In this document: positions 5,588 through 30,835 of the stretch, one piece after another | Layout of the letters: each line of letters starts with the position of its first letter | Numbering within the stretch: the stretch's first letter is position 1 | Assembly: GCF_029227915.1 (NCBI RefSeq) | Contig: NC_079888.1 | Span: 4,911,001-4,975,000, forward strand | Direction of reading: 5' to 3' | Length of the DNA: 64,000 bases | From: Hydractinia symbiolongicarpus | Lineage: Eukaryota > Cnidaria > Hydrozoa > Anthoathecata > Hydractiniidae | The notes under the pieces: generated by a model | What the model saw: the letters and a program-made list of their open reading frames with translations, nothing else | Told to the model about the DNA's origin: nothing | Database searches by the model: none | Position numbers and translations under genes: made by a program

Positions 5588-8500
5588 ATGATTCCCCTAA
5601 AGGTTGTTATCATTGGTGCTAGTGGAGTTGGTAAAAGTTGTATTATGACAAAGTTTTGCAATGGCACTCTTGCTAAGGGTTTAACAGTAAGTTGTGACTC
5701 CAGAACAAAAACTATGGATCACAAAGGTTTTAAATACAGGTTGCAAATTTGGGATATTGCAGGACGGTGTTGGGCTTTGAATACATCATATTTTCATGGG
5801 GCAGACATGATTATAATAGTTTACGATGTTGGTGAACAAAGTTCTTTTGATTTAATTGATACATTTATTTCTCAAATTAAAAAGTACGGTAAAGGAGATG
5901 TACCATATGCAATTGTAGCAAATAAAGCTGATTTAGAATGCTGGAAAGTTGAAGAAAATCCGAAAGATGCAACAAAAGGTCTATTTTTGTAAGAATTTTT
6001 TTTTCATTTTCCTTGTTACAGGAAAAAATAATTACACTTCGAATTCTGCCTTGACTTTCGGTGTCCCAAACAGATTTTCTGTCCTCAATTCACATGCTGA
6101 ATATATACTGAAAGTTAATGTTTACGACTTTTTTTGTTATTTTTTGATTAAGTACCATGCTAATAGTTTTATTTGTTCAAAGCCTACTCAGGGTTCGAAT
6201 TAGAAAATTAAAGTCGGTTCGCAAAAATTTTGACACTCTGTAACAACCACCATCTAGATGTGGCCTGGGAACACCGTAGGTCAATTTTTCACTAGTGGCT
6301 AATTTGTATTTTTTTGTGACCTGCGAGCTCTACTTTTTGTTGCGTTATTATTTTTTTTGTTGGAGAAGTGAAGACGTTTAAACTTGTGAACCCCAAACAC
6401 GAGAACTAAGCGTATGAACTAGCGACTCTCTCACTTTTAACTTTCTTGTATCTGATAGTTGAAATAATGTTGCTTAAATGAAATAAGTTTATTTTTATAG
6501 CATGCTGTAAGAAAATATTCAAAATGTAATTATTGTTTCAGAGGTTCTTAAGTAAAATGCTGGCACTTAAGCTCAACTTGCAAAAGTAATTGCTTTCATT
6601 CAAAAACACAATAGAATAGCGAATTCCTTTCAAATCACGCAAAAATAATTGCTCGTGTTAAGAACAAAAGCATAGCAAGAAACATTGTTTAAAAACAATA
6701 CTCTGCACTGGAAAAAATAAAATGCGAAGGCTATTGAATTTTTAATTCATTCATGAATTTTTAACAACGAAACTAATTAAAGTAACACGATTTTAATCTG
6801 GATATATTTTTAAAAAGACAAAGTTTTTTAAAAAACAAATCCAATGGTCTAAATATTTAAAAAAACTAATGCTGCTACTTTTTAAAACTTTTAGTAACAT
6901 TTCTTTATCATCGAAACATATTTTCTATCATGCAAAACTTTTAAAAGTTCTTCTTATAAAAAGCGATGTTTACCAATGCAAACGGAAAAACCCTACGTTC
7001 ACGGCTTTCCCTTCCAATAAGATTTCGAAAACAAATTAAATTTCAATGCCGAAGAAAGAAAAAATCTAAAAATCTAACTTTCAATGTTCTTGATAGATCA
7101 AAACACTCATTGTGAGAACATTTTTGCGATGCGATCTAAGAAAGCATTTCTATCACCGTTCTTCATTCTTAAATTATTGAAACGTGATTTAAGAAAGCGT
7201 TTTTATCGCTGTTCTTCGTTCTTGAATTTTTAAAACAGGTTTTTTTTTAAGCGGAGGTAAATTTTTTAGAGTTAGAAAGTGGTTATGAAAAGTGTAATTT
7301 CAAAATGAAAAATTTCAATTTTCCACTGCTTTTATTATTATTTTTTTGACAAGGTGCTGGGACAGAAATGCTTGTCTCTCACTGTTACAGCTGGACTTGA
7401 CAAATGTATTATTTCAATTCAAAAACTGCCTTTTTGACTTTTCTTGTTCTTTCTTAGTCTCAAAACATCATGCAAAACGAATTTAAACATCAACGAATTA
7501 TTTCAAAGAGTTGTTGAATGTTGTCATGATGCAAAGCAAGAACAGATAAAACAGAATGGTTATGATTCTGGCATTCTATCTATCTCTGAATGTGATACAC
7601 AACGCACTTCTAAGGAAAATGTTGTGACATTTGAGGGCATTATAAGGAATCCATGTTTAACCAACGTTCCATATGACTTATCTATTTCAGTTTGCGAAGC
7701 ATTAATAAACTGCAGAAAGTCTGGCTTTCTATCGATGAAAAACATTTTTATGTATTATCGTTATTTTTTTGTGATGCGAAAAGATATGTTATATTGGTTT
7801 AGCAACAATAAAAATGCAACTTGTATTGGTCAATTGGATTTGAATGGGTGTGTATCTGTCACACATACATGTCAATATATTAACATAAAGTATTATAGTG
7901 AACCAGGCAAAAGTATCAGTAGTATATGTTTATATGCATACAACAAACAAGAATGCGAAGAATGGTTAAATTTGTTACCAAGTCAGGTATGAAACAATTA
8001 TTTTTCTTGTTGTGAAATTTATCTATTTAGTTTTCAGTTTTTTTTGTTGATCTTACTTTTAAAATTTCTCTCAATTTTCTGTCAAAACATACTCTTTTTA
8101 TAGTGGTTGCATAGTACAACAACAACATTTTCTGTTTCTGTGAATTAATAACATATCATTATAGCACGAAAAATATCATGGCTAGGTGAAGTGAGATATA
8201 CATCATATTCATTTCTTAATATTTAAAGTACAATTTTCAATATCGGAAGTGTAAAATATAAGCTTATTAATTGTGGGTAAGGAAAAATTTTATAGAAAAC
8301 AAAACGTTTATTTTCTTTTATAATAAATATATGTGTTAAATAGTTTAAAACAATGATAAAAATTCACTGGCAACAAGTAAAAACATTTAATCCAAACACT
8401 GACCGAAGCAAAACTTATTTGCAACTCTCAGCGTTATCATCGAACTCTCAAAATGGAACAGTCATATAATTTGATTTAGTAAATGCTAGGTGTTAGTTTA

Positions 8501-11500
8501 CCATAATGATAAATGATTCTTGTGTTGCGTTTTAACGAACGTACATGAAGTTTTTTTCCTCCACTTTTTGCAACAATGTCTTTATTATTATCTATTAAAT
8601 CGTGTTACTTTATTATCTAACATTATTTATCTTTAAAAAATCTTTTCATTCAAAAAGTATTTCTCGTGCTAATGATGTACTAGTTTTCGCATATACTGTA
8701 GCATGACCTTGTTTAATGTTTTGTGTATTTTTTCTGATTCTTTAACCTTTGCATATATTTTACTTACTTAAAGGCTCTTAAAATAATTTTCCACAAAGTT
8801 TTAAAACTCATTCTAACATTTTCTAAATCTTGGTTTTATAGTAGCAATCAAGATTGCTAGAATATAGCTATAATTCTTTTCCTTGTGTGTTGGCTGTCTG
8901 GTATATGAACTTCCAGGAGGCTGCCTTAAACATGTGAAAATCTTTTTTTTTTGGTTTCCTTATCAAAAATTATAGTTGAAGATATTCAACTATAATTTTT
9001 GATTTTTTTTATTATTTCAAACAGTATCAAATTAGGCTAATTTGCCAGATTTATTAATTTTTATATAATTAAATTACTTTTTCAAGTAGTTTAAAACAGA
9101 GTATAGTGCAAATATTTAATCTTTCTTGTTATAAAATTAACCTGTCTAATAATTATTAAATTTTTTTTTATTACAGAGTAGAGCTAATGAAAACCTGAAA
9201 AACGAAAAAAACCCAGATATGATTCCTTTGGATATTATTGGCAAACTTCAGTTTCGAAATGAGAAAGAAATAAATGTGACTATTTCAAAGCAATCAGATG
9301 AAGAATGTGTGTTACAATGCATACCAAAACGGTTTTTGGGTTTCTTATTTGATTATTCCGCTTCATTCCAATTTCCACTAAAGAGTTTCAGGGTAAGTAG
9401 TAAGAGATGCAAACACAGATAAAGTTACGTAACAAAAAATGTGCCATGTTTAAATTTGAAAATATACAGAAGATATACAGTCTGTGCAGTTTTTATATTC
9501 TTTTCGTTACGCGTGCAACGTTGTGGCTACTGTACCTATTGAATTGTGACATAGATTAGCTAAGGCCATCTTTAAGTAATTATTTGTTTTCCGTAACCTA
9601 ACTTACAAAAAATAGTTATTTAGCTATTCAATTGAAGTCAGTCATATACAGACATATTTTTTTGGCTACCCTGTTAGCATGTTAGTATATAAGACTTGTC
9701 AATAAACCCAAAATACACTCAATGTTTTTTAGAATTTTTTTGCCTGTTGCTTCTATTACAGATCTTGAACCTCTAATCAAGAAAATATATAGGATGGTGT
9801 GCTCTTGTAAATAATTGAAGGTTTATTAGAATTTAGAGTTTTTTGATGATGTCATCAACCCATCTGTTCCAAAATCGGTGGATTGACCCAGGTTGTGGAA
9901 CTTGTTCCAATTTTGGTCCCAGGTTACCCATGCATGAGATGGTGTTTTTAAAAGACCCCCCTTTATTTGTCATTAATTTATTGTTACTTTTATTTGATTT
10001 ATTTTATTTTCAGTATTATAAAGACATGAAATCAAGTGGAGAATTTTTATTGACTAGTACTGACGTTTACATGAAGCTTTGGTTTACACCAAAAAATGAA
10101 AGGTAATATTCTAAATAAAAGGGTAATGTAAAATTAAGTCTCTGTTGGGCATTGATAGTATTGACATAATCAAGCAACATCATTACTTAAGAACAAGGAT
10201 TTAGTTAGTTAAGCATAATTCTCTTTTACCATAAACTGTATGCTCTAAGTTTATACAATGGAAAACTAAATGACGTTTAAAGGGAAAAAATATACAAAAC
10301 TATGATGAAGACAAAAAATAAAATTTTATTCAATCCAATGTTAAAAGTAAATAAACTTAAGGGAAGAACTGTAAAGTACAATAGTGGTAATTCATAATTT
10401 TGCATTTGTTTTATGTTCTTAAACCTTAAGCACTTTTTTTAAAAATAAGGATTGACATTATATAATTTAAACAATAGTTTTTGTCATCACAGACCACTGC
10501 CATGAAGGAACGTGGGTCACCGTCTTTTGAGAATTTTATGCACATTATATCTGCACTAAATAATTTCGTAGTAGAACTTAATGTGAGTTTAATGATTAAG
10601 ATAATAGATTTAGAAATAAAGCTTTACTCAGCGCAATAATTTTTATTTGAAAGAAACATTGATTACTTCTCTGGGAGTACTGCTCACACGTATGCTGAGA
10701 ATTATTTATTGTTATTGTTGTTTGATTAGTTTTTTTCGACCTTATATGTATAAAAAATTTTATTTTATTTTATTACCTCACCTTCTATATAAATTATGGA
10801 TACAATGCATGACGTTTATATTGAAAATAGTGGAAGTTATGCCTGCAAGCTAGTAAAAATGCGTTGATAAATTTGTCATATCTTTACATTAATTTAACTT
10901 TTTTTGGTTCACCTTTTTTACAACTAACAATAGCTATTTGTTGTTAATATTTCATACTTTTTTATTGTTTATTTTAGTTTTAGCTTTTAATTTCTAGAAA
11001 ATTTTAAGCCCTTAAATAATTCTTTAAAGTGAGTCTTTCAGTTGGTTCGGTTTTCATACAGCTGCATTTTACGCCCAGTCGGAAAAAGCGCCGCAACTTT
11101 TATTACATGTACCAAAACCATTTCCATTCAGCTATTTTTCGCTTACATGCTTTTGCAAAACATGGCTGCTGTACACAGACGATATTTGTTGTTGTAAAAT
11201 TTGAAATTAGTCTTAGCAATATTGTTATGGCATAGAAATAAACGACGTTGTATAGTACAAAAGAAAACATGTGGGTGAGACGATTGTTTTTAGAAAAAAG
11301 AACTAAAGACCTTTACAACGTTTTGGTAAAAGATTTAATGCTATCAGATCATGAGTACTTTTTTAAGTCATTCAGAATGAGTCCAACAAGGTTTGAAGAA
11401 CTTCTTTCGTTTGTGGCTCAGCACATCCGGAAGTCACTAGTCCAAGTGAGAGGTTATGTATAACACTACGGTATTTGGTCAAAGGGGATGCACAAGCAAC

Positions 11501-14500
11501 AATTGCTAGTAGCTACAGAGTTTTCCACCCACAGTAAGTAGCATAGTAAAGGAAACTTGCGAAGTTATATGGTTGGAACTCAACGAAAGGGATTTTCTAA
11601 GAGTACCAAACACTGAAGACAGCTGGCATGAAGTGGCTAATGAATTTGAAACAAATTGGAATTTGCCTCATTGTTTAGGAGCTATCTACGGTAAGCATGT
11701 GGTGATGCAGGCCCCTGCAAGAAGTGGTTCAGATTATTTTACCTGTATAAAAACACACAGTATAGTATTAATGGCAGTATGTAATGCAAATTACGAGTTT
11801 ACGTTTGTTGACATAGGAGATGCTGGACGACAAAGTGATGGTGGTGCAATTGATAATAATAAAATAAATACTTTATTTGGAGAAACTTTCGCAAGAAAAA
11901 CTTTCGCGAGAAAAAAAATTCTCCAATTAAAGCATGCCACCACCTAGCCCAATCCAAAACGCGGGAACTAAATTGTAACCATATGTTTTTATTGCTGATG
12001 ATTCATTCATGTTGAAACCCTTTATGTTAAAACCATTTCCTCGTTTGGATGCATGCCAGAAAAGAAAAATATTTAATTACAGATTATTAAGTGCTAGACG
12101 TGTCTCTGAAAATTGTTTCGGTATTAAAGCAGCAAGGTTTAAAATTTTTCGCAGGCCAATAATTGCACAATTTGATACCGTTAACTCGATAACAAAAGCT
12201 GTTTGTTGCTTTGCACAATTTTTTAATGATCAGTCAAAGCATGCACAGAAAAAGCAGTTATTGCCTGCCAGGATTCACTGACTGCAAAGATGTGGACTTT
12301 ATACAACATGGCGAATGGAGATCTGACACACTTGGTGACACCGGCCTAATCGATATTGGAGTACAGGGTTCGAATAACTATAATAAAACAGCCAAAGGGG
12401 TGCAAGACAATTTTAAGGAATATTTTAACTCTCCAAGTGGTGCTGTAAGCTGACAGCGGGATTATGTCAATAGAACAATAGATCCATTTGATTTATGAAA
12501 TATTTATATGAAAAATATATACAAAAATATAATAAAATAATAAAGTTTACTCTATACAGTTTCTCCAAATTCAATTTTGAAAAGCAACTGTTGTATTTTG
12601 ACTTTTGCTAATTTATTCCTTCAAGAATCATATATTCTCAGTGTTGGCACAAGGCTCTTACAAAGGCGCATATCTTCATCATTCTCTTCATCTGCAACTT
12701 TTCCACTGGAGATATTTTTCGTTGCTTCGTTAATATTTTTAAGCGTATTAAGGACATGCATGTCCATTTGAGCAGCTGTGTTCCTTCAATTTTTTACTAC
12801 TACTACTACTGCTAAAACTACTTTCCAAATTTGAGCGTTTTGCAGAACGTGTAGTTTGAGTATTACCACTTGCAGGGGAATCTACTACCACAGAAAAGTC
12901 TAAAACCATTTCGTGACTAGAAAGCATATGAACTGGTGGTGGTGAGCTCATAACATTACCATGTTTATTACCTTTTCTTGAATACACTGTGGTTGCACAA
13001 AATGTTTGCATTTTGGCAAAGTGTAGTATGCTGCCCCAGATTTAGTCATTTTTGACCGTTTTACTATGCACCTCTTCAGGTTCTCCCCAAGATTTTTCAA
13101 CCCACTTTTAAGGAATTCAACTAAAAAAGAAAATACATTAGCTGATAAATAAGTAGGTACCACAGAAGTAGCTTGCTAGTTTTGTAAAAAAAGGTTACAA
13201 TTTTTATATGTAGACTTTTATAGACACAAAGTGTGTGGCAAGCTTTTAGAGCCAGGTAGCTAGCTATATCTTACCTGTCTTATAAATTTCTTGGATAACA
13301 CTTCCCAACAAGTTTTTCTGTCTTGATCATGATGAGACCGCGCAAAGGTATTCCATAAAGCTGGATAGCGCTCCATCTTGTTAATGAAAACGTCTATGCC
13401 ATGTTAAAAACAACAGCTTCATCATATTTCTGCTTAGCTTATTCTAGCAAATTCCGCCCTTCATTTACTAGGTTGTTGCTTTGTGCCTCCACAGAATCGG
13501 TAAGGTTATTTTATTCTATTTCAGTTGAATAAGTAATATTTTATTCTCTAAGTTCACTTGATTTTGATAAAAGTTTAATACAGATCTGATGTTGTTGCTA
13601 GCCATCTTGAAAATAATCTAATTAAAAATTCTTTCGTAATTCATGTAGATTTTTGTAGATTTTTTGATTGGCTGTTAAAGTTGAAGCACAAAATGTAGCG
13701 CACAAGAAGTAGAGCCCATTCGACTTTTTTTTAAATCGACGCAGGGGATGCAAAAGCATGAGGTCAGTGGCATTATTCTGATATGCGCATGCGTAGATCA
13801 AAAGTCACGGCGCTTTTTATGACTGGGCACAAAATGCAGTTGCATGGAAACCGGCGTTTAAAGGGAACACAAGGTATAAAATGATGTTGGACTTATATTA
13901 CAGATTATTATTATTATTTCCGAATTTATATACAGGATGAGTATGTCAGTAAAAAATACTGTTATAAATATACGTCCTGTAGAGCTTAAAAAATTGGTTG
14001 ACAAATTTTTTAAAATTTTTTTATAAAAACTCTTTTCGTGCTTCTTTAAAGAATTCCAGATTTACTAAATATAAAGGTTTAGGGAATCCAATAGAGTAAT
14101 AAAAAATTGTATAATGCTTTTACAAATTACAAAACTCTTTCAAAAATGATGAGGCAGAACTGAGATGATAAAATTGACGCAGTTTTATTTAGCTGGCAAT
14201 TATGCAAAAACAGAGATGTATCACATTAATAATGTAGTGTAACTTTGCATCAAAGTATATTTATGAGGAATGAACTGGTAGATAGCCAGCTAGCTATATA
14301 TACACATGCTCACATGTTTTAAATTACTTTAGAAAGCTATCTGTTGATACAGAGAGTTACTTAATTTACTCAATAAAGAAAGGGTCCTTCTTTTTTAAAA
14401 CTGGACTGCAGTATGGTAGCCCACTTAGCTTTGCATTTTTTATTTTAAAGAGGAATTTTCAGGAAACCCTTTTTTGTTGTTGTTGTGGTGGTGGCATTGT

Positions 14501-17500
14501 CTTCTAAGAAATTCATCACTCAAGCCTTGCCTTAATTTAATATTGCAGGTTATTTGTTTCAAAGCTAAAGTCTATATTTGGTAAAAATTCATTTGGTGGA
14601 ATGGTGACAAAATCAGTTTTAAATGAAACATTTAAAATGATTTACAAAATTGCTTGCTTGCAGTTAAATGTTGCTGCAGTCAGTGAGGTCATCTATATCA
14701 TTGATGAACATATCAAGGACAAGTACTAATAATTTATCTTTACATATTATTTCTGTCACAAAAAATGTATATTTTTTAATTTTTAATTCTTTTTTATTTA
14801 GCAGAGAAATACATGACCTATATTTGCGTGGGTGTCCAATTATTCCACAAGACATCTATGCCATTACTCATGCTTTATCATTCTATCCTGGCATAACTTC
14901 AATAAATTTAAGAAATACACACATGACCAGTAAAGGTACGTAAGTTAAACTGTATAGTTGATTCAAAAAATTACTATGGTTCAGTTCAGTTCTAACAGTT
15001 CTATTTCTACATTTCTTTTTTCGTAAATTCTGTATTAAAAAAATAAAGAAATTTTTTTAAGCTTAGAATACCACGGAATGTATATGTATATATGTGTCAT
15101 GGCAAATATGCCAAGGTGCCCACCGGACGTATATATATGTCACAATAATAAATTCAGGTGCCTGATTTAAAATGTTCCTGCCATTCCGTGGTTCCCATGA
15201 AATAAGAAAGATTTTCAGGCAACATAACTATTTTTTTTTCTCATTGCTTTACTTACAAGAAAAAACTGCACAAAGTTGGGGATGTACACCTGCATCTTTA
15301 TGCAACTGCCGAACAATTTCAAACTTAAATCGCATGAAAGTATGTTTGTTTCTTTCTTCAACCTTGTTGTATATAACAAATGCATTGTATAATGCCTTTT
15401 CCAAAAAGTGGGAAAAAATCTAGGTATACCAGTGTAACTTTTACAAATGCAAAATTATTATCAATCATTGCGTCACCCATTTTCGATTGTAATCATGGAT
15501 AACAGTTGGCTTTTGGATTTGATCATTGCGAAGGTTGAGTCGGTTCACATTCACTGAATCAGCCTTATGCATTGTTGAAAGCATCTATATCACTACTCAC
15601 TAAAGTATTTTCATTCCTCTGGAATGCAAACTGGATTCTTGGAGGGTTTTCCTGTTTGAAGAAGGTTGAAAGCTTCAATCTGTTTCTTCTGACTGTTCCA
15701 GCAGCACTGGTTTTATTCTTGTAAAGGTAATGGAATAGAACTTCAATTGTGTACCAGTTGTCTACAAACAGTTTGTAGCCCAAACCAAGGCGATCGCTGG
15801 TTAAGTTAGCAAAATTAGGCCAGTTTTTCCAATCCTGTTCTCTAAGGCATGTTGTTCGTCATCACCAGCAGCAGTTTTACCACGGTACACAAATGAATTA
15901 CAGAGATAGCCAGAATTTATTTGAAGACCAAATAACTTAATTTCAAACCTGACTTTTTTACTTGGTATGTATTGCTTGAAAGATAACCTTCTTTACCATA
16001 GTACAATTTCTATATCTACGTAAATACTCAGGGCAGGAAGGTGAGTTGTCTTAAAACGATCGACTAAAAAGTCCACCGCATGTCTCACCTTGTGCAGTTT
16101 ATCCGGGTTTGGATGATTAGCATCATAATTAGAGTTGTCTGCAAAGTGTAGAAACTCCAATATCTTTTGAAATCTATTCCATGCCATTACCTTGTTGAAG
16201 ACAGTAGTTTTCAGTATAGGATCAGTGCTCCAATATTGATGGACTTGTGGCTTTCTGAATAAAGGTTGTTAGCCAATGCAATGTAGTTGCTTTCCACTGA
16301 CGGGATATTGCACTATTAGAATTTGCTTCAATATATTGATCAGCATACAAATTTGTTTGCGCTGAAATCTGTTTATGGAAGTCTTTAGTGATAAACAATT
16401 TCAAATAATTCAAAATGGCAGTGTTCTCTTTGTGAAATGCAACTTGAAGTCCAGCATTTGCAAAACATTTGTGCATTACAGGGTCTCTATCATTTCGCAA
16501 CCAGGTATCTCCCCATTGCATCTCTTTGTCATTTCATGTAACTTGATTGATACGTCTTCCCCTTTTCTTGTGCTGTAGCATTCCGAGCATTTTTTCCACC
16601 ACTTGTTCTTATTCTTTGCGTGAAATGTGGCACAGTTATTTCATTTGCAACATGCTGTTGGTCCTCTTCAGAAGAGCTTTCATACTCTAAATGCTGAGAA
16701 TCACGATCGTCATGCACCTGCAAGTACATAAGAAACAACATCTGCTGTCGAAATACCTTTTTTTGCAGCCATTTCACAAAAAGAGTGCTTTTTTTGCAGT
16801 GCAATATTGTTATCAAAACATAGTTAAGTTTTGAATGTTTGAACGTTCGGAAAGTGAGATTATAAAACATTCCAGAAGCCAAGGAATAACACAATAGAGC
16901 TGTTTTCAGCGCTGCAAGTCAAATTACAAGTCACTTTCCAAAGGGCACTGAGCTCAGTTTTCCATGATGTATAATTATATATAGTAGCTTCAACTAAAAT
17001 GCGGCCGGAGCCTAGAATGGTAGAATAATAATTACGTTGGGTCTCAAATGGTCAAAGGAAATCAATTGTTTTAATCTACGTGTAGTGAATTATTATTATT
17101 ATTCCAAATATTTATACAGGATATACCCACTTCAGTGTTGTTATTAATGTGGGTCCTGTGTTCTAAATGTATACATTAAGTATGCACCGGCTAGCGTACC
17201 CAATTTCCCACACATGGCTTTGGTTGACCAGTAGCTGTGGTAAAGACACTTACTAAACATGCCGGCGCTGTGGACCGAACCACGGACCATGTGATTACGA
17301 AGCGAACGCCATAACAACAAGGCCACGCGCCAAAATGATCGGTAAGATGTGAAAGATCTAATAATTTTCATAAAAATTGAAACTCTTCAAAGCAGAGGGT
17401 GCTTGTCAGTTTCAGGGCAAAGTCTTTTGGTAGGGTTTTGTCTGATTAGAATAAAATATGGAGATCTGTAAATGTATTTTAGGTACTTGTAATATTTCAG

Positions 17501-19918
17501 TGTATTATTGTCTTAGTAAAAAATCAGTCAAGGAACATTTTCTGGTCCAAAAATACAGAGTAAAATTTAAAAAAATTATTTTCCCAGTTATGTAATTAAT
17601 TCATGTCAGTGAACAATAAGTTAATCAGATAAATATATTATTACATTAAAGTACTAAAAGTATTATTAGAAAGTGAATGTTAATGTTGCACTTCTAAATT
17701 TTCTTTCTTTAAAATTAGAAAGGCTACAATACACCATGCATTTCTTTTTAGGTCTTGTGTACTTATTAAAAGCACTTTGCAAGTACGAGTCATTACTCAA
17801 TTTGGATTTTGGATTTAATGAGCCTATTGATTCCCCTGAAACAAGATCTGCATTACAAGAGTATCTTCCAATTGCAAGTTTAAAAAGCATAAAGTTTATG
17901 AATACAGATGTTGGAAATGAAACATTTGATGTATTTTTTCAAGCTCTAAAGGTAAAGAATGTGTTTTCTTAAATCTAAAATATAACATTGTCTTGTATGT
18001 GTGATTTGTGATGATTATGTTTTTACATGTTGGTTTTTTCTTTGCAAGGAACACGTCAAGAAATGTTACTAATAGGTTTCTCTGTGACAAAACATGTTTA
18101 CATGTATTTACTAAAGATAATTGTCCGGAAGTCCAGTTAAATATTCATAAATTTCATGAATCTGTAGACACCCTTTTTTATTTTTTTTGTTTGTAGACTC
18201 ACGAAACGCTTACTCATGTTGATATTAACTTTAATTCTGTTGACGATGTAAATAGTGATGCTATTTCTCAAGTTATTATTCACAACACAAAGTTGGAAAC
18301 TCTATCCATGTGGCATAGTCATATCACTGAGCACGGTGCCATGGTATTGATAAATGCCCTGGAACAACGATCAGTAAATTCACCAAGTTTGTGTCTAGGG
18401 CTGTATGGTTCGCAATATATATCTGAAGAAACATTAAAACATTTGGACGTAGGTGTTGTTTTTTTCAATAAAATAAATTTTGTTCTTTTTTAAGTAGTGA
18501 ATGGGGTTGACTATAATCTGTATTTAAAGCTGGTATTAAATGTTATATAAGTCTTTCTTTGCCTTTTTAGCCTTTAAATTCTTGTAAGAATTTTGAATAA
18601 TGACTGGGGTCTTTATTATAGGAATGTACAAGGTTTAATTGTAAATCTGAAGTAGAGAAGGAAGTAAAGATGGCAAAAACAGAGGGGCAAAGTCTTCCAA
18701 AAACACTGTCTGAGTTTATACTTGAAGGAGATGAAATGCATCAACAAAACCTCAAAGAAAACGAAGTTGTAAAAGTAAAATTGAAAGAAAAAAATCAAAA
18801 CGAAGAAAAAATTGAACAGGAAAGATATGTTGGGCTGGCATGTGGAAGTGATAGGGCTAAATCCAATATTAAAAACAACTACTTCTCTCCGCTTGATGAT
18901 CCAGGTAACGACTCTGGATCTATGCACTCATTATTTCTGAAAAGAAACTAGTTTTTATCTCTTATTTTGTTATTTCTTATGTTCATTCTTAGAAACATGC
19001 CAATATCATTATTTGTCAAATTAGCTCTGTGTTTAAGAAGTTTGCAATCATATGTTCACACTTAAATTAGATAGATGTTTCTTTTTAGAAAAAATGGTGG
19101 CATATGTGTTGGACCAAAAGTTTATTGGCGAAAGAGAAAATGGGTCATACTTTTCAGAGACACTGCTGGACAATTATGGTAAAGCGAAAGAATTATGGGC
19201 TTCATGTAATAGGTGCGATCACCCCATGCTGGACGTGGTAGCATATTATTGTAATAATAAAACACACAAGAACTTACTGGATGATGTAAACACAGCTTTA
19301 AAAGAATGTGGATTTTTTGGACTTGTGATTGATGAAGAAGAAATTCATCCAGTTCAAGAAGGTAATTATTGGAATACTGTACACATGTTGCAACAAGATT
19401 TTTTTATTGCTCTGCATTTTACAGCTAAATTGTGAAATCAGCAGTCGCTGAAAAATACTGTTGCTCTATGCTTTAATAATTAAATTAGTTTTATGGTATT
19501 AATGTTATATCACTATAAGCGTACAGACGATGATATCGATTTAGATTTGCTTTAAAAAGAAAATGGTTTTGTTTGCCGTCTTGTTTGTTAATATTTTTTT
19601 TGACTTTTTAATTTAGTTGAGGACTCCATTGATCTTTCGAAATTTGATGAAAAAAAACGACAGATATTTTCAATGATATCAAATCAAATTGGTTTCGAAG
19701 CAAGGTATTTGTCTCATTTCCTATTGGACTTTGATGACGTTCTGACTATATCAGTTGCTAATGAGGGAAATGTGACGGCATACACTAGTGACGTTCTGGC
19801 AAGGTGGTATGTAAAAACGAAAAAAGAACTGCGAACTTGGAAAAACTTGCGAAGTGTTCTAAAGTTCTTGGGTAAAGGTAAACTGATTGAAGATATTGAA
19901 TTAGATTTTAAGGACTGA
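5588..19918 (+). CDS. Rab-like GTPase / PH / LRR / Death-domain protein, copy A (11 coding exons)
   Basis: Exons: 5588-5988, 7458-7986, 9177-9392, 10014-10102, 14549-14722, 14802-14935, 17752-17951, 18197-18448, 18622-18904, 19089-19361, 19617-19918. All have GT/AG borders and matching phase; the total is 2853 nt, 950 residues. Residues 1-157 are Rab-like: P-loop GASGVGKS, NKAD, and a G5-like TSCK formed across the exon 1/2 junction. Residues about 221-307 are a PH domain with the conserved C-terminal Trp (EEWLNLL). Residues 311-411 are beta-rich, perhaps a second PH-like fold. Residues about 412-665 carry ribonuclease-inhibitor-type LRRs. Residues 666-759 are Lys/Glu-rich and likely coiled coil. 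Residues 760-850 are an unknown module with CNRC. Residues about 865-945 resemble a Death domain (VLARWYVKTKKEL). Switch II is abnormal: two codons are missing compared with copy C, leaving WDIAGRCW. An AG acceptor at 5581-5582 implies an upstream 5' exon. Likely an intracellular signalling protein; function is inferred only from domains. Confidence 0.82.
7131..7242 (+). repeat. Degenerate ~60-bp tandem repeat, about 2 units (intron 1, copy A)
   Basis: Two units starting GCGATCTAAGAAAGCATTTCT / GTGATTTAAGAAAGCGTTTT, each followed by a CTTC(A/G)TTCTT(A/G)AA motif. The matching intron of copy C holds five to six units (52180-52511). Confidence 0.65.
8962..9003. repeat. Perfect 19-bp inverted repeat, 4-nt loop (intron 2, copy A)
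   Basis: Arms 8962-8980 and 8985-9003 are exact reverse complements around the loop GATA. Copy C has the same hairpin near 54318-54359 with one mismatch (TTGAA to TTAAA). Likely a MITE relic or a structured intron element. Confidence 0.75.
11269..12453 (+). pseudogene. HARBI1-like transposase, broken (copy A)
   Basis: The frame starts at MWVRRLFLEKR and includes the helix-turn-helix-like FRMSPTRFEELL, the first catalytic-Asp region (GAIxGKHV; here GAIYGKHV, so the Asp is replaced by Tyr), DIGDAGRQSDGG with the second Asp, and the ENCFGIKAARFKIF block with the Glu. A 19-nt deletion near 11433 flanked by GTCA shifts the frame, a 27-nt segment after SDGG is missing, and another shift near 12270 separates the C-terminal block (FIQHGEWRSD). 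The product cannot be an active transposase. Confidence 0.8.
12500..13440 (-). pseudogene. MADF/Myb-like Harbinger accessory protein (copy A)
   Basis: Minus strand. The N-terminal part near 13275-13400 reads MERYPALWNTFARSHHDQD, then KTCWEVLSKKF, a MADF/SANT-like DNA-binding fold, and ends at a GTAAGA donor. Further exons at 12948-13163 and 12748-13011 encode a Ser-rich, basic tail (RSAKRSNLESSF, SSSKKLKEH). In Harbinger elements such a protein normally helps nuclear import and DNA binding of the transposase. Intactness could not be shown: exon joins are uncertain and there is a frame break upstream of 13400. Confidence 0.6.
13907..13985. repeat. SINE 3'-end-like fragment with (ATT)n
   Basis: An ATTATTATT run followed by TTTATATACAGGAT and ending TACGTCCTGT resembles the tail end of the SINE at 17090-17332 (ATTATTATT, TTTATACAGGAT, GGGTCCTGT). 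It lies just outside the Harbinger right end. Confidence 0.4.
15061..16960 (-). mobile_element. piggyBac-like transposon in intron 6 of copy A
   Basis: The left end follows a TTAA (15057-15060). The equivalent copy C sequence begins TTAA-CCCTTAGAATACC, a typical piggyBac start. The minus-strand coding pieces are DTWLRNDRDPVM (about 16222-16521), MAWNRFQKILEFLHFADN (15993-16187), a YIPSKKVRF block near 15960 and KLFVDNWYTIEVL (15565-15783), which holds the last catalytic Asp region. An acidic N-terminal part lies at 16529-16894. Frame breaks separate these pieces, so it is inactive. The right border is not certain. Confidence 0.78.
17090..17332 (-). mobile_element. tRNA-derived SINE in intron 6 (copy A)
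   Basis: Read on the minus strand from 17332: a box A-like TGGCGCGTGGCCTTGTTG, then box B-like GTGGTTCGGTCC, then a body containing CCATGTGTGGGAAATTGGG and an (AAT)n tail. The body motif CCATGTG(A/T)GGGAAATTGGG is shared with the SINE at 46223-46580, so the two appear related subfamilies with different tails. The identical insertion occurs at 62202-62443. Confidence 0.65.
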
Positions 19919-20742: not shown

Positions 20743-23700
20743 ATGATTCTTCTAAGGGTGGTTATCGTTGGTGCTAGTGGAGTTGGCAAAAGTTCAATTG
20801 TGACAAAATTTTGCAGTGATACACTTGCAGTTGGCTCATCAGTCTTAGGCTGTGATTTCAGAACAGATACTATGGATCACAAAGGTTCAAAATACAAGTT
20901 ACAAATTTGGGACACTCCTGGAAACGAAGAGTTTTGGACTTCAAATTGTTGTTCAGCAGACATGATTATAATAGTTTACGATGTTGGTAAACAAAGTTCT
21001 TTTGATATGATTGATACATTTATTTCTCAAATTAAAAAGTACGGTAAAGAAGATGTACCCTATGCGATTGTTGCAAATAAAGCTGACTTGGAATGCTGGG
21101 AAGTTAAGATAAATCCCAAAGATACAAGAGAAGCTCTTTTTTTGTAAGTTTCTTCCCTTATTTTTATTTGCTTTTGAGGACAAATGTTTTATTCAAGAGG
21201 GCTTTACAATTGAAGGTGGAATGCATTTTTGCCTAATATTCACAAAAAGTATCTGTTTGCCTTGAACATGTCCTTTGACTGGTATGTCACATTTCGGAAT
21301 CAGTATTACAAAATTTACATCTACAACTACGGCAAGTGCCAAGCAACTACTCTTATCTTTTACCCAGATTTAACTAGTGTTATAGGTTTTCTTTTGCTTG
21401 TGCCTTCATCTGTTTTTTAAAAAATGTCTAAGCTTTATGAAATGGCAAATTTTAACTTTGCATGACTTTATACCAAAGTAGTTAAATGGGATTTGGAAAT
21501 TATGGAGGCAAATAGTCTGTCTACAATTTTTTTGTCATAAATTTCTTACCTTAGTCTATCATTTGTAAAGAACTTAAAACACAGTATATAAGATCATGAA
21601 CATTTGTGTACATGATTAAGAAGATATTGAAGTTTAAAGATGATGTCATCAATCTGTTGGTTTCAAAACGGATGGGTTAGCCCAGCTTAAAAAATCAGCA
21701 TAAATTTAGTTTAAGGTGGTTTCTGGTTACGCAGCCATTATTTAGCCTTAAAGTTCTATATAAAATTCAAGGCCTTCGATCACTTACTTAAAAACAGTGA
21801 CATCAATCCTATTTTTTATTGACGTCAAAACAATATAATAGACTAGTTTAAAAGCATATGGAAGAATGCATTTGATTACAGTAGGGTAGAAAATACTTTG
21901 AAAATCATTTTATGATAACGTCGTCAATGGGCTGTCAATGTATTAAAAAATTGTTAACTGATTGTGTAAGCTTAACTACTATAATCAACTTTAAAAAGTC
22001 ATAGACACACACACAAACTGGTCATATTATAATAGACTGAAGTGCATGAAAAAGTTATAGCTTGTTTTAGAAATTTTAACGAGTCAACAGTTGTGTTTTT
22101 GACGAACAGTTAAGGATATAAAACCCAACAATGTGCAAAAAAATTTATCCTACATCAATAATTAAAAATAATATCCTGTTTTAATACTTTTATAGACATT
22201 TGTTATGAATCTTGATGATCATCTTCATGTTTATATTTATGATATACTATCTTGATGATTCATTCAACCAGCACTAAAATGTCAAATTGCAAGCAAATAT
22301 AAATTTTATTTGAGCAATATAGAATCTTCTGCTGCCTTGTTCTTTTATTCTGATGCATCTGACTTGATTTTAATGCTATAGTGGGCAGAGAACAAAAGCA
22401 ATTATTTTAAAAGCAAATAACATCAAATTTCACCCACTCCAGTACTTTAAATAGATTAAATTTCTGGCATATTGTAAAGCTTGTACCAGTTCTCTTTTAC
22501 CAACAAGTACATAATTCTATTTTGCCTGACAGCATAAGCTAAATTATGATTTGTTGGGCTAGCAGAGTTGATCAACGTACTTGTGGTAAGGCGCAATCAA
22601 GGTCATTGTTTGGCATTGTGTCAAGATTCCAGTAGCTTTATCTAATATAGTCAACATTCAACAGACCAGTCAGGAGAATTTACTTGCACATGTAAATTAA
22701 TCTGTGTGAGAATCCATGTGCAATCACAGACTAATCTGCACTTTGCAAAGTTAGATCAATGAGAGAGCTGCTATCTGATAGAACTTGTGGGGGATGTCTT
22801 TACTTGTGAACCCCAAACACAACAACAGAAGGTGCACTACTGACTAAAATCAACTTAATTTATCCTAATTAAAATTAAATCTTCATTCATTTTTATTTTT
22901 TTTATACAATGACATATGTTATGCATTTGGTCAATTGCTGGTCCACTGCTGGTTAGTTCTGTGATAACCTGTTTTATAATTGAGTGTTTGTTCAGCAGCA
23001 GATGTGTGGTTGTATGAAAATTGGGAAAGTGTAAAATGCAGTTTTCTTGTTCTTTTTTAGTCTGGAAACGTCGTGTAAAACAGATTTAAATATCAGGGAA
23101 TTATTTCAAAGAGTTGTTGAATGTTGTCATGATGCGAAGCAAGAACAGATAGAACAGATAAAACTGAATGATAACAATTATAGCTCTCTGTGTGTAACTG
23201 TTGCATGTGCAAGTTATAAAATGCCCATATCAACGTACAACATAACGTTTGATGGATTTCTGAAGAACCCATGTCTAACAAAGATTCCATATGATTTATT
23301 AGTATCTGTCTCTGAAGCATTAGTAAATTGTAGTAAAAGTGGTTTCCTATCGATGAAAGGTATTCTGATGTATCACAAGTATTTTTTTGTATTGCGAGAA
23401 GATTTTTTATATTGGTTTAAAAACAATAAAAATGCTACATGTATCGACCAATTGGATTTAAATAGTTGCCTATCTGTTATGCAAAAGAAGTGTCAATACA
23501 TACATATTAGTTACTACAGCAAATCAAGTGGAAAGATTGAAAGTATGCGTTTATATGCACACAACAAAAAAGAATGTGAAGAATGGTTAAATTTGTTAAA
23601 AACTAAGGTAAGACATTTTTTATTGAAAATGATAACAAGAGATTAACGACATACAGACGGAATAAAAATCTGCATAATACAAATTTTCTAAAGGTGCAAA

Positions 23701-25945
23701 AAGTAGAACAGCATGGGGGTAATCTGTTAATATTGTAATTGTTAACTGTCTAAGTAAGATGAAAATAATAAATAACAAGTTCAGTGTAGTGTTCTTATCA
23801 TAATATAATTTGCTACTTTGGTTACCACACGAGATAAAATTTCAAAACAGTCTTGTCTAAAAACAGAAACATTCTATGCAGAATTGTGCTTATAGAATAA
23901 GTCGATGTAAACAAAACATTAAGATGTTTGACACTTTTTAAAAAAAGAATGCGTAAAATTGAATGTGCAGCTAAAGTTTAGTTACAGCGAATATTGAAGT
24001 AAATCTTCCAACTAGCGAGCCAAGAAATGACATGGACTTGGATGATTTTTATGTTGACGAATAACCGATTTCTCGTCCTGTGTTTAGCATTTTCGATCAA
24101 GGTCACCGTTTTTTATAGACAATGTTAAGATATTAGTTAACTTGGCTATGTTAAAGAACCTTTCAGACAGAATATTGCAAACTAATGTCAGTACTTCAAT
24201 AAAACTTGGCATTGTTGTTGTTTCTATCCTATAAAATGTTTTTTATCGTTTAGTGTCATCAAGAGCTCTAAGCCAATCACAAGGTTTTTATTGGCTCTAA
24301 GCCAATAAAAACCTGTATTGCCTGCTCGCATTATGCAGATGATTAGCAATTTACAATATTGACCATTATATATTGGTTAATCAAATTAGCTGTATTTTAT
24401 TGTCTAGCAGCAGAAAGAAGACACAGAGCATGAAGATAGCCACAAACCAAAGAAAGATATGATGCCTTTGAATATTATCGGGAGATTTCAGTTTAGAAAT
24501 GATGAAGAAATTATTGTGACTATTTCAAAGCAATCAAATGAAGAATGTGTGTTACAATGCATACCAAAGTGGTTGTTGGGCCTCGTTTTTGATTTTTCTG
24601 CTTCATTTCAATTTCCACTAAAAAGTTTCAGGGTAAGTTGTAATGGATGCGCAAACACAGATAAGTTACCTAACAAAAGATGCACCATGTTTAAATTTGA
24701 GGATATTATTCCAGTTTTGTCTGTACAGTTTTTATATTATTATTCGTAGTTTATCGCAAATTCAAGGGCTGCCACAAATCCAGGTTAAAATAGACAATCA
24801 TTTGTACCCTAAAAATGTGACAAGCCAGGATGATATTTGCACAGATGATCTCATGTTTAAAGTTGTCTGTGAAATGTAATTTTTCTGTTTTAAAGCTTGG
24901 TTTCTATCTGGAGTTAATTCGTGTTACGCATGTGCGCTAATTGGAGTTATTTTTAATGCCTAATGGAAACGATTCAATGATTTCTTAAAAACCCAAATTC
25001 TAAGTCATTTTCTTTCCTTATATTGCTGTCTTTTAATTTACTTTTATTAATTAACTTTTTCGTTTTTAATCTGCACATGTGGAGTTTTCCACGGGCTTTA
25101 TCGACTAGTAATCTAAATAATATCTATTTTCCAAATATTAAACTGCAAAATTGATGTGTGTATTTTTACAATAACAATAAAAGAAATTTTTTCAAAAATT
25201 TTCATAGAATTGGTAAGTAACCCTTTCTCTGCCATAACATGCATGTCATTTGATAAAATACCAGCCCTAATCCATTTCTTTTTCTCTAGTATTATAAAGA
25301 CACAGAGACAAGCAAAAATTTTTTATTGATTAGTACTGACACTCACATGAGACTTTGGTTTAGACCGAAAGATGAAAGGTAATTCCTAAAAAACTCCTGC
25401 CTGTTTCTTAAATAATATTTTCTTACTTTTGTCATTTTTGTAGATTTAATTTATTTTTTACGACTTTTGATGCCTTTTGCACTTTGGGGATTTACATGGT
25501 GAGTACTATTTAAGGAAAAAGCAACAATAAGATGGAAAAGGAGTAAAAAGACCAAAACTGTGCCATAAAACAAAGGGTTTTATCAAAACACAGGTAGAAC
25601 ATGCCCTACTTTACTTGATAATACAATTCTTTGTCAAAGTTAGGTTTACACTAAATGCTAAATAGCGATATAATTTTAGGTACCCAGTGTGCTAAAATTT
25701 CGTGATTTACAAACATATGTTATCGCTAAGCAAACAAGTAATGTCTGTAGACATGTGATAGATGACACCATAAAAAGATCACTGTTTTTTCACTTTCTAA
25801 ATTAGCAGCAACAATCTCGTATTTCCTTCTTTGTTTTGTGGGAGACTGTACACATTTCCAAAATAAGTTGTTCAACTGAATTTATTTTATTGAATGCTTT
25901 TTTTATTATAAAGGAGTTTCAAGGCTCTTCATACTGATCTACAAA

Positions 25946-26683
25946 CAGCATAATTGACAGCATCATGTATAATTGACAGCATCATGTATAATTGACAGCA
26001 TCATGTATAATTGACAGCATCATGTATAATTGACAGCATCATGTATAATTGACAGCATCATGTATAATTGACAGCATCATGTATAATTGACAGCATCATG
26101 TATAATTGACAGCATCATGTATAATTGACAGCATCATGTATAATTGACAGCATCATGTATAATTGACAGCATCATGTATAATTGACAGCATCATGTATAA
26201 TTGACAGCATCATTTATAATTGACAGCATCATGTATAATTGACAGCATCATGTATAATTGATAGCATCATGTATAATTGACAGCATCATGTATAATTGAT
26301 AGCATCATGTATAATTGACAGCATCATGCATAATTGACAGCATCATGTATAATTGACAGCATCATGTATAATTGAAAGCATCATGCATAATTGACAGCAT
26401 CATGTATAATTGATAGCATCATGTATAATTGACAGCATCATGTATAATTGACAGCATCATGTATAATTGACAGCATCATGTATAATTGATAGCATCATGT
26501 ATAATTGACAGCATCATGTATAATTGACAGCATCATGTATAATTGACAGCATCATGTATAATTGACAGCATCATTTATAATTGACAGCATCATGTATAAT
26601 TGACAGCATCATGTATAATTGACAGCATCATGTATAATTGATAGCATCATGTATAATTGATAGCATAATGTATAATTGACAGC
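25946..26683 (+). repeat. 19-bp minisatellite, about 38 units (intron 4, copy B)
   Basis: The unit CAGCATCATGTATAATTGA is repeated head to tail without spacers for about 738 bp. Variant units include CATTTATAAT, TGATAGC, ATGCATAAT and TGAAAGC, interspersed among identical units. The array ends about 50 bp before coding exon 5 (26735). Confidence 0.95.
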
Positions 26684-27435
26684 TATACAATGTATATGGA
26701 TCTGTTTTACTCAGATAATTAAATTTCTATGTAGATTATTCATTTCGAAACTGATTTCTATATTTGGCGAATATGCATTTGGTGGAATGGTGACAACGTC
26801 TGTTTTGAATGAAACATTTAAAATTATCTACAAAATTGCTTGCTTGCAGTTACATGTTTCTCCTGTGAAACGTATCCTCGACCTTATCGATGAAAGTATC
26901 AAGAACAAGTATTATTAATTTTTTTTTAGGCCTAAATAATGTTTTTCTCTGACACAAAGCTCCATTGATAAATCTGTGTAAAAACCTAAAAAGCTTTAGT
27001 TTGTGTTACTTTGACATGACTCGAATTAGTGGGCCACAAGTCCGCGTGTTTAGATATCGAGTTTTGGTTATGGATAGTGTTATAAAAGCGCATCTCAATA
27101 TATATATGGATTACATATGGAATATGTCTATTTTATAGGAAATCAATACATGAACTATGTTTGCGTAGATGTCGAATTATTCCACAAGACATCTATGCTA
27201 TTACTCATGCTTTGTCGTTCTACCCTGGCATAACTTTAATAGATTTAAGAAGTACACGTATGACCAGTAAAGGTACTTGATTATTGGTTGTTAATTTGAC
27301 ATTTAACGTCTCTCTGGAAACGTTATAGTTAAAAATCAGCAATTATTTCTTTATGTATGTTGAACCAGCACTTTAACTGCGATGGTAAAGACACTGTAAA
27401 CTGATTTGAATTTTTAGTATTAAAATGGGATAGGT

Positions 27436-27525
27436 AGATCTATCTAGATAGATAGATAGATGGATAGATGGATAGGTGGATAGGTGGGATGGGTGGGATG
27501 GATGGGATGGATGGGATAGATCGAA
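27436..27525 (+). repeat. (GATA/GGAT)n microsatellite (intron 6, copy B)
   Basis: A run of TAGATAGATAGATGGATAG that drifts into GGATGGGTGGGATGGATGG. Simple-sequence DNA with no coding role. Confidence 0.85.
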
Positions 27526-28037
27526 TGTTTCTGAGAGAAGTAAAGAAAAAAAATTGAAGAAAAAACTCGCTTAAATTTCTTCAAACAAAATTGCAACCCT
27601 TAAGGTAGTCAAAACTTTGTCTTCCCTCAGTCAGTTTTTTTACACCCTAAATTCAGGAAAATAGACCAAACTTTGTCTAGCCAGGAGTTATCACAAAGTC
27701 GGACATCCCCCAAAATAGTTTTTGTTGGTTAAAAAATACCTCGATGAGATTCGTGATAAAAGTTGTAATGGCATGTTTATTTTATTTTATAGGTCTTGTG
27801 TATTTACTAAAAGCACTTTGCAAGTACAAGTGGTTACAGAGTTTAGATTTTGGACAAAATTAAGCTATTGATTCTCGAGAAACAAGATCTGCTCTACAAG
27901 AGTATCTATCCAATGCACAGTTAAAATGCATAAAGTTTCGCAGTACAGATGTTGGAATTGTAACATTTGATGTATTTTTTCAGTCCTTAAAGGTAAAGTT
28001 TATTCATAATTTCTGTTTAGTTTTGTGATCATTGCAC

Positions 28038-28091
28038 TTTGATCATTCCATTCTCATTTTGGTTATCCAAAATGAGAATGGAATGATCAAA
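28038..28091. repeat. Perfect 25-bp inverted repeat with 4-nt loop (intron 7, copy B)
   Basis: Arms 28038-28062 and 28067-28091 are exact reverse complements around TTAT. The hairpin lies inside intron 7 and is followed at once by a degenerate GATGATTTCATTT tandem array. Confidence 0.9.
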
Positions 28092-28105
28092 TTCTGGAAT
28101 AATTA

Positions 28106-28245
28106 TATATACGATGATTTCAGTTACGATGATTTCTTTTGCGATGATTTCATATTTTGATGATTCCATTTGGGACGATTTTATTTGCGATGATGTCATT
28201 TGCGATGATGTCATTTTGGATGATTTCATTTGTGATTATTTTTAT
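28106..28245 (+). repeat. Degenerate 13-15-bp tandem array GCGATGATTTCATTT
   Basis: About nine imperfect units such as ACGATGATTTCTTTT, GCGATGATTTCATAT and GCGATGATGTCATTT follow each other in intron 7 of copy B. Confidence 0.75.
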
Positions 28246-30039
28246 TGGGATTAATTTTGTTTGACAAGATTTTATCATGTTTTTATGATAAATTCAATTG
28301 CATAGATTCTTGTTTCAGACTCACAAAACGCTTACTGATGTTGATATTGCATTTAATGTTGTTGATGATGTAAATTGTGATGCTATCTCTGAAGTTATTA
28401 TCCACAACACAAAGTTGGAAAAACTGCTCATGTGGCATAGTCATATCACTGATCATGGTGCCAATGTATTGATAAATGCTGTAAACCAACGACCGATGGA
28501 TTCACCACATTTGTGTCTAGAACTCCATGGTTCTCAATATATATATGAAGAAACAATGAAACATTTTGACGTAAGTGAGGTTCTTTAGTTAATACGTTTT
28601 TACCATATTTTTATTACTGTTTTGTATATATTTCTATATATGTGTATTTTTATTTACCCTGAACGCATTTTTTTCTATCCTGTCTTTCTTAATTTCTCCA
28701 AAGCACCATCATAGCCCTGAGAATATGCTCATATCGCTTAAATCGCTACAACCTAATTATAAAGACTCAGTTAGTTATCTGACTGACCTATATTTGGCCA
28801 TAAACACAAAAAAATAATATATTTTTAAGCAATAAAAGCAATAAAGAATTGGCTGGAAAAGTGTCACAGTTGAACACACGGCGCGTGTTTACAGGTAAGG
28901 CGCACGGATGAAATTGCCATTGCGTACTTTAAGAGATAACCAAATAAATTTGGGTATTTTACTTTTTGTGTTTTGCTCACAGACCAACCTAACTAGCAGC
29001 GATGTCTAGCATGCTAATGGCCTCAGGGTCACGTTTCTAAAATCTAGTTATTTTATAGGAATGTGTTAGATTGAAATGTCAATCTAAAGTAAGCAGAAAG
29101 GTTAAGGTATCAGGACAAAGCTCGGATTTTGTGGAAACACTTACTGGAAACAAAATTAAGGAAATTGTGGGTAAAACTTCTAATGGTGAAGAAATAGAAA
29201 AGGAAATTGAAAAGCTCAAATTAAAAGAAGAAATTCAATCAAAAGAAAAGGTTGAAAGGAAAGGACTTGCTCGCATGAAATCTAATCTTAAGAACAACTA
29301 TGTGTCTCCACTTGATGACTCAGGTGACAAGATTAAAATACTTTTCTAAAATTTTTTTGATCTCTGCACCAGGCTAGAAGAAGACTAATTTTGACACTTT
29401 CAGTATCGCGCTTTTTGTATCCTATCCTAAGTAACAATATCACGGTTGTTCATTATTGTGTTCTGCAGCTAGTGGTTAAGAAATTAGCAATTATAGATCA
29501 CACGGTCTGACTTAAACGTAAGGATCTGTATATTTAGAAAAAATGGTTGCGTATGTGCTGGACCAAAAGTTTATCGGCGAAAGAGCTGATGGGTTGTATT
29601 TTTCAGAAATTCTGCTGGACGATCATGGTAAGGCAAAAGAATTATGGGCTTCATGTAATAGGTGCGATCATCCTGTGCTGGACGTGGTAGCATATTATTG
29701 TAATAATAACACACGCAAGAATTTACTGGCTGATGTAAACGCAGCTTTAGAAGAATGTGGATTTCTTGGACTTGTGATTGAAGAGGAAGAAATTCATCCG
29801 ATTCAAAAAGGTACCACTTGTTTTTAATGCTTTTATTGTTTTGGATAAAGTAAAAAAATACTATGGTATTGTTTTGGTATATTTAGTAATCTAGCTAAAA
29901 CGTTATAGAGAAGTTAAAAAAAGGAGGCAGTTATTACTTTTGTAGGTTCAAATTTTTTATGTGTTTCCATTTTTATGCATTTCCCCTTCCTCAAGGTATT
30001 GAGTGGTCTACTACTATAAAAAGTTCCCGTCATTTTTTA

Positions 30040-30835
30040 CAAATGCTCAGTAGACTGCATGTAGAAAATCTTGCGCAAAGATGTCGCCGATCCGATTTTC
30101 CATCTGTCTTGGAAATGGAAGGTCGGGTGGGATGTTGGATGTAAATTCAAATATCGGATGAAATCGAATTTCTTGTTTGTGACACATCTTTCATCCGACA
30201 CGTGAGTTTAGTAATTTGAATTTTCACGATGGAGGACAGAACTTTGCTCGCAACGGTAATTGTATTAAACGAGCTTGCAGATTCTGATGACGAAAAAAAA
30301 AACAATGCAGAGGAAAAACAAGAAGTTTGATTTGATTTCTTTTTTTCTGGCATTTTGCTTTTTTCACTTGTTCTTTACTCTTTCCATGTAGTTCAAAAAC
30401 TTCACCCTGATGGTCAATCTCAATTTCACCATCACTACCAGATTTCTTAATTTCTTCAATAAAATAAAACAAAATATAATATTCAATATAATAAAACAAA
30501 ACAGTGTTATTTTGAATGAATTCGAATTTTCACGCGTTCGAAAATCAATCAATTTTTTTGAAACGCCAATTATTTAATTTTGTAAAGAAAAAGACTCCAA
30601 AAGTCGGATGAAATGGTACACCAAACCTATCCGACATCACTTTTGTTTATTTTTTTGTTGGATGTTCTGGAACAAACTTTCATCCGACCTCATCCGACTT
30701 GATTTAGCACTTTTTTGGAAAATTTTGTTTTTTTGTACATACGCAAACCGATCCGACATTTCATCCGACATGGGAAAAATCTCAAGTCGAATGAAAATTT
30801 CGGTCGATTTGCGTCGACCTTTAACTGGGTAGTAC
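30040..30835. mobile_element. Harbinger-like remnant rich in (T)CATCCGAC motifs (intron 10, copy B)
   Basis: The hexamer to octamer CATCCGAC or its complement occurs at about 30089, 30155, 30191, 30603, 30630, 30681, 30691, 30751 and 30762. Between the two motif clusters is a short + frame (from 30230, MEDRTLLATVIVLNELADSD, stop near 30330) facing a minus-strand frame with a Glu/Lys-rich sequence (SGSDGEIEIDHQGEVF). Two convergent fragments suggest an internally deleted PIF/Harbinger element, but the family assignment is inference and terminal repeats were not fixed. Confidence 0.45.

Follow-up and report, generated by a model that had tools for sequence, protein, structure and literature searches.

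We analysed a window of 64,000 nucleotides of the Hydractinia symbiolongicarpus genome, corresponding to positions 4911001-4975000 of contig C14 (NC_079888.1); the genome searched for related sequences comprised 480.9 Mb. Hydractinia is an animal model for allorecognition and regeneration. The window contains an eleven-exon gene, here called gene A, followed by a broken copy (copy B) and by most of an open copy (copy C) (Table 1). The order of domains in the predicted product of gene A, as supported by the sequence, is a Rab-like GTPase, a likely PH domain, perhaps a PH/PTB-like stretch, leucine-rich repeats (LRRs), a charged linker, the product of exon 10 and a Death domain. A previous description of the window, made from its letters alone and referred to below as the sequence-only reading, had proposed that gene A encodes an intracellular sensor or adaptor with a small-GTPase switch.

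Gene A and its tandem copies

Rebuilt from the sequence, the 11 exons of gene A join in phase into 950 codons with no internal stop, and 10 of 10 introns have GT-AG borders. The exon chain can be taken as real and not due to chance, because the same 11 exons are intact in copies C, F and D and the translation of copy D is identical to a public protein, P0002 (LOC130625544 isoform X2 of Hydractinia symbiolongicarpus, 952 residues, found in NCBI, UniRef and nr), which is read exactly from 11 blocks of the contig (4977089-4989275). The same exons are joined in a second database protein, P0001, with 957 residues, of which the last 479 are identical to copy C. Pfam family PF27087 is listed by the protein database in both P0001 and P0002. 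At the NAGNAG acceptor of exon 6, P0001 takes the form that is one codon shorter. P0001 also has six residues ahead of the methionine encoded at 5588, mostly derived from a separate 5′ coding exon (MSMA|E) located ∼11 kb upstream. The sequence ATGTCTATGGCAG followed by GT is present at window position 39697 for copy C and, beyond the window, at C14:4898426 for gene A and 5010764 for copy F. Because P0001 carries this extra 5′ exon and the matching sequence for gene A lies at C14:4898426, translation probably begins upstream of 5588, and the ATG there would be an internal codon.

The same exon order occurs seven times (copies A, B, C, D, E, F and G) between positions 4916588 and 5055234 of the contig, with exon 9 of copy G not detected. 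Four copies (A, C, D and F) have open frames throughout the 11 exons, and three (B, E and G) are broken. Copy B looks like a pseudogene (Table 1), copy E has no P-loop and its exon 11 is cut as in copy B, and copy G contains several stops and no in-frame P-loop. When the genome was searched with the full-length protein, 52 matches were obtained (best 48 of 164 candidates), all of them inside this array. The sequence-only reading had described a single gene of 11 exons joined in phase into 950 codons. The gene and its exon chain were confirmed by the GT-AG introns, by the recurrence in copies C, D and F and by P0001 and P0002; the tandem family, the broken neighbour B and a genome-wide family of Death domains related to exon 11 had gone unseen.

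The units of gene A and copy C are 96-98% identical over ∼19 kb and represent the halves of a recent duplication. The segmental duplication, flanks included, pairs window positions 1-18889 (gene A) with 44066-64000 (copy C) at 96-98% identity. Transposase remnants (Pfam DDE_Tnp_4 and DDE_Tnp_1_7) lie in intron 4 (11513-11947, + strand) and intron 6 (15993-16268, − strand) of gene A, and they are probably older than the A/C duplication, because similar frames recur in copy C.

Selection was evaluated through the ratio of non-synonymous to synonymous substitution rates (dN/dS). Comparison of copies A and D over 926 codons gave a dN/dS of 0.34 overall and of 0.21-0.60 across each of the 11 exons, and therefore both ends of the chain have been maintained as protein. 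The lowest dN was found in exon 10 and the highest in exon 9, which encodes the charged linker. Judged by these ratios, the divergent copies are under purifying selection in every exon. Between copies A and C, 34.5 non-synonymous and 7.5 synonymous changes were counted over 750 codons (dN/dS 1.14), and 16.5 of the 34.5 non-synonymous changes fall in the GTPase exon. The B versus D ratios for exon 7 (1.42) and for the total (1.02) were set aside, since the stop in copy B shifts the codon pairing.

Domains of the predicted protein

The N terminus is certain, by sequence comparison, to be a Rab-like GTPase, as had been proposed. The Pfam Ras profile matched gene A with 106 bits (E 2e-30), P0001 with 134 and P0002 with 103 (cut-off 21.6), the GASGVGKS P-loop, NKAD and TSCK motifs are present, and the closest solved structures retrieved by a sequence search of the PDB were Rab26 and Rab1. 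The Roc profile gave 67 bits with gene A (E 2e-18), 87 with P0001 and 65 with P0002. Pfam scans revealed no NACHT domain, the NTPase matches being Ras-like or general GTPase except for 15 residues of the P-loop that matched nSTAND1 at E 0.77; no COR domain up to E 10, a PH-like region following the G domain; and no EF-hand listed along the chain.

The catalytic glutamine of the DxxGQ motif is not kept in this GTPase. Copy C reads DTAGNER and copy D DTPGNEE, with asparagine in place of glutamine, and gene A reads DIAGRCW, where six bases have been lost from switch II and the catalytic position is deleted. In copies B and D three other codons are gone just after switch II, and exon 1 is the same in copies C and F. 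With the catalytic glutamine replaced by asparagine or missing and with in-frame deletions in switch II, the domain is expected, from general knowledge of Ras-like proteins, to hydrolyse GTP slowly or not at all. For the same reason (asparagine in C and D, deletion in A) a plain on/off GTPase cycle is doubtful, so that the small-GTPase switch of the sequence-only reading is weakened. The C-terminal prenylation cysteines of Rabs are absent as well: the usual lipid tail is missing because the G domain is N-terminal, and the 950-residue chain ends with ELDFKD.

Exon 2 likely holds a PH domain. The Pfam PH profile matched P0002 with 21.4 bits, P0001 with 19.1 and a fragment of gene A with 20.7 (E 4e-4 to 2e-3), which agrees with the PH domain previously assigned but does not reach the curated cut-off of 25.1; PH was not listed in the Pfam scan of full-length gene A. 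In the full-length structure model, which was built on a two-sequence alignment too shallow for use beyond the LRR part and is of low confidence here, the region forms seven strands and a closing helix. Exons 3-5 show by eye an IRS-type PTB pattern (FPLKSFRYY and the last helix). No Pfam match to IRS/PTB was obtained in these exons, and the HHalign probability was 1-2% in a low-power comparison of three against three sequences, for which 3 of the 7 IRS matches of the same genome were used. A PTB-like domain in exons 3-5 is perhaps present and is best treated as a lead.

The LRRs consist of about seven 28-residue repeats of ribonuclease-inhibitor (RI) type with an LRR solenoid, and the modelled LRR part fits the LRRs of NLRP9, NLRP1, NLRP3 and NOD2. 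As judged from the sequence matches and from this part of the model, they are of the ribonuclease-inhibitor/NLR type, in accordance with the RI-type repeats recognised before. Downstream of the repeats, exon 10 was considered as a second Death domain, a proposal that found no support: profile comparison, of low power, gave a probability of 0.2% against Death and of 0.1% against the exon-11 family.

At the C terminus, sequence profiles support exon 11 as a member of a divergent Death domain family. The profile of the exon-11 family matched the Pfam Death domains of the same genome with an HHalign probability of 95.1 (E 3.3e-8), and the controls reached a maximum of 2.9 with 60 shuffles and 0.4 with the reversed profile. 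For the Death profile, 4 of 20 loci (L036, L037, L041 and L045) were left out as presumed near copies, as judged by their scores. The low-confidence model of exon 11 agrees with a Death fold and has ankyrin and UNC5 Death domains among its nearest folds. Two observations qualify this assignment: exon 11 of gene A has no Pfam Death match as a single sequence, and 3 of 13 members of the exon-11 family match Pfam Death, the best at E 0.05. Pfam and NCBIfam scans of the chain gave nothing above cut-off for Death or PTB, and nothing relevant was retrieved from the PDB by sequence searches with exons 3-5, with exon 10 or with the exon 11 sequences from three copies. The sequence-only reading had predicted a C-terminal Death-like domain and had named the lack of a death fold there as an outcome that would count against it; the profile match and the low-confidence model both favour the Death domain.

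Domains resembling exon 11 are dispersed over 18 places of the genome, including C3:15250309, C14:18083755, C2:22800453 and C5:11005177 (L054-L064 are among the members). They share 28-40% identity with exon 11 of copy D and are barely recognised by Pfam. No Ras match among those listed (best 150 of 308 candidates) stands, as judged by eye, within 100 kb of any of the 18 loci. A Death family of Hydractinia that evades Pfam suggests that the hydrozoan death-fold repertoire may be undercounted.

Other features of the window lie in and between the copies. Intron 4 of copy B contains a tandem array (25948-26696) that repeats in steps of 19 bases. An astacin metallopeptidase exon is located at 32566-32868 (− strand; Pfam Astacin E 9e-28), between copies B and C. 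Open frames at 40998-42785 (− strand) resemble by eye pieces of a reverse transcriptase, one of them with FADDTSIFY; the two that were tested had no Pfam match at 1e-3. With regard to a link to the sex locus, the accessible part of PMC9926710 does not mention the gene.

Table 1. Gene A and its neighbouring copies in the window (window positions)
Feature	Position	Strand	Content
Gene A exon 1	5588..5988	+	Rab-like GTPase: GASGVGKS P-loop, switch regions, NKAD; switch II DIAGRCW, two codons shorter than in copy C
Gene A exon 2	7458..7986	+	End of GTPase (TSCK, last helix), then likely PH domain (below Pfam cut-off)
Gene A exon 3	9177..9392	+	Start of putative second PH-superfold/PTB-like domain; weak IRS profile comparison
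Gene A exon 4	10014..10102	+	Middle of putative PH/PTB-like stretch
Gene A exon 5	14549..14722	+	End of putative PH/PTB-like stretch and helical linker 5′ of the LRRs; helices in low-confidence model
Gene A exon 6	14802..14935	+	LRR (RI type); NAGNAG acceptor
Gene A exon 7	17752..17951	+	LRR
Gene A exon 8	18197..18448	+	LRR
Gene A exon 9	18622..18904	+	Last LRR part, then charged, fast-evolving linker
Gene A exon 10	19089..19361	+	Conserved domain, no family match; lowest dN of 11 exons (A vs D)
Gene A exon 11	19617..19918	+	Divergent Death domain (supported by profiles) and stop codon
Copy B	20743..31406	+	Exon order as in gene A; exon 7 interrupted by an in-frame stop, exon 11 cut after ∼35 codons
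Probable 5′ coding exon of copy C (MSMA|E)	39697..39709	+	Match to N terminus of P0001
Copy C exons 1-9	50644..64000	+	Intact; exons 10-11 just beyond window end

Proposed function and competing explanations

The exon chain, the GTPase, the LRRs, the Death-family membership of exon 11 and selection on all exons are supported at the sequence level. We propose, with a probability of roughly 0.45, that the Hydractinia tandem family is a cytosolic GTP-binding, LRR-regulated Death-domain scaffold. The PH and Rab-like parts would place or tether the protein at membranes, and the LRR arc would act, as in NLRs, as a surface for ligand or partner binding and for autoinhibition that keeps the protein closed. 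Upon release, the Death domain would assemble with Death-domain partners, of which the genome has many. The GTPase would bind GTP and hydrolyse it poorly, serving as a long-lived switch or as a nucleotide-stabilised scaffold, and that of gene A may be a pseudo-GTPase. The domain logic, with a nucleoside triphosphate (NTP)-binding module, LRRs and a death-fold output, matches that of NLRs and Roco proteins, and it makes a sensor with signalling through assembly of the death fold plausible; an immune or cell-death readout would be the most likely use.

The chief alternative is that the protein is a membrane-traffic or signalling adaptor, a "large Rab" scaffold that links Rab effectors to Death domains of receptor or ankyrin type and senses no danger. 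The best PDB match of the GTPase is a Rab, the PH domain is probable, ankyrin and UNC5 Death domains are among the nearest folds of exon 11, and Rabs with added domains (Rab44, RASEF and Rab46) are described in the available parts of PMC8303950 and PMC7645795. However, an N-terminal Rab domain leaves no C-terminal prenylation cysteines, the catalytic glutamine is lost, and tandem duplication with broken copies would be commoner in immune or conflict genes, so that we consider such an adaptor rather unlikely.

A second explanation concerns gene A only, which might be a decaying copy, with genes of the C, D and F type alone at work. The two codons lost from switch II, the catalytic position included, the dN/dS of 1.14 against copy C and the open breakage of three of the seven copies are what decay would leave. 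Against this, all 11 exons of gene A, their splice sites and frames have been kept open and dN/dS against copy D is 0.34, although most of that divergence is older than the A/C split. Decay of gene A is possible but rather unlikely.

It is a little less probable still that some copies are uncollapsed haplotypes and that the real genes are fewer than seven. The near-identity of the A and C units over ∼19 kb would fit such an artefact, as would the exon 1 shared by C and F and their equal match identities to A in 7 of 11 exons; yet all copies stand in tandem in one contig, and C and F differ in their identity to A at exons 4, 5, 9 and 11. Finally, that two neighbouring genes, Rab-PH (exons 1-4) and LRR-Death (exons 5-11), were misjoined across the 4.4 kb intron 4 is highly improbable: chimeric gene models do occur, and this largest intron separates the two parts and carries a transposase remnant, but P0001 and P0002 both connect the same exons, the phases agree at all junctions, a codon is split behind its second base between exons 4 and 5 of copies A, B, C and F, and the order of the detected exons does not vary among the seven copies.

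The LRR-regulated Death-domain scaffold proposed here lends itself to experiment, because Hydractinia can be edited with CRISPR, as reported in the accessible part of PMC6122657.

Comparison with known systems

No description of this domain order was found in searches of the open-licence literature. Protein databases yielded no full relative outside Hydractinia, in searches that needed shared 5-residue words and that distant relatives may escape; one of them scored the best 8000 candidates by shared words. Apart from P0001 and P0002, the searches matched one archaeal protein, which has only the Ras domain in common. The architecture proposed in the sequence-only reading, which could name no family with a Rab-like domain in such an order, stands.

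Several known systems resemble parts of the chain. DOK/IRS adaptors have a PH domain followed by an IRS-type PTB, and the family resembles them in its probable PH domain followed by the IRS-PTB-like pattern noticed by eye; it differs from them in that no Pfam IRS match was obtained and HHalign gave 1-2% against three IRS loci of the genome. CARMIL (LRRC16A) likewise has PH followed by RI-type LRRs, with an LRR sequence match at E 0.0087. Unlike the family, it is not known to contain a Rab or a Death domain, and its LRRs number about sixteen, compared with about seven here.

The large Rabs (Rab44, Rab45/RASEF and Rab46/CRACR2A) also carry a Rab domain inside a large multidomain protein. In RASEF and Rab46/CRACR2A the Rab domain is C-terminal, behind an EF-hand and a coiled coil, as in Rab44. 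Large Rabs (Rab44, RASEF, Rab46) are known to add other domains to the Rab domain (PMC8303950 and PMC7645795, in their available parts), and in Rab44 the Rab domain stands behind an EF-hand and a coiled coil according to the available part of PMC7645795. In contrast, the Rab domain of the Hydractinia family is N-terminal, and Pfam lists no EF-hand.

Roco/AP-GTPase proteins (LRRK1/2, DAPK1 and MASL1/MFHAS1) share with the family a Ras-like GTPase and LRRs, and DAPK1 combines a Ras-like GTPase with a Death domain. The AP-GTPase is found with LRRs, and in DAP kinase, in the accessible part of PMC8195603. The family departs from Roco proteins in that Ras (E 2e-30) scores better than Roc (E 2e-18), no COR is found by Pfam and the LRRs come after the GTPase.

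NLR receptors, like the family, are cytosolic proteins that unite an NTP-binding module with RI-type LRRs and a death-fold domain. Unlike NLRs, the GTPase is here Rab-like instead of NACHT and N-terminal, the Death domain is C-terminal and a PH domain is probable. NLRs with NACHT and LRRs were found in 9 of 9 anthozoans and in 0 of 6 medusozoans surveyed, Hydractinia symbiolongicarpus perhaps not being among the six, and Death is the domain most often combined with NACHT in Hydra, according to the available part of PMC8260672. The family might be a hydrozoan stand-in for NLRs, in which a weakly hydrolysing Rab-like GTPase would replace NACHT, RI-type LRRs would sense or autoinhibit, PH would position the protein on membranes, a Death domain of a family expanded in the same genome would nucleate the signal and tandem copies would give diversity; we regard this broader proposal as speculative and quite unlikely. 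If the LRR-regulated Death-domain scaffold works as proposed above, the lack of NACHT-LRR receptors reported for this branch (PMC8260672, available part) would be made good in a new way by a hydrozoan Rab-LRR-Death family, a nucleotide-gated, LRR-regulated death-fold receptor built independently from a trafficking GTPase.
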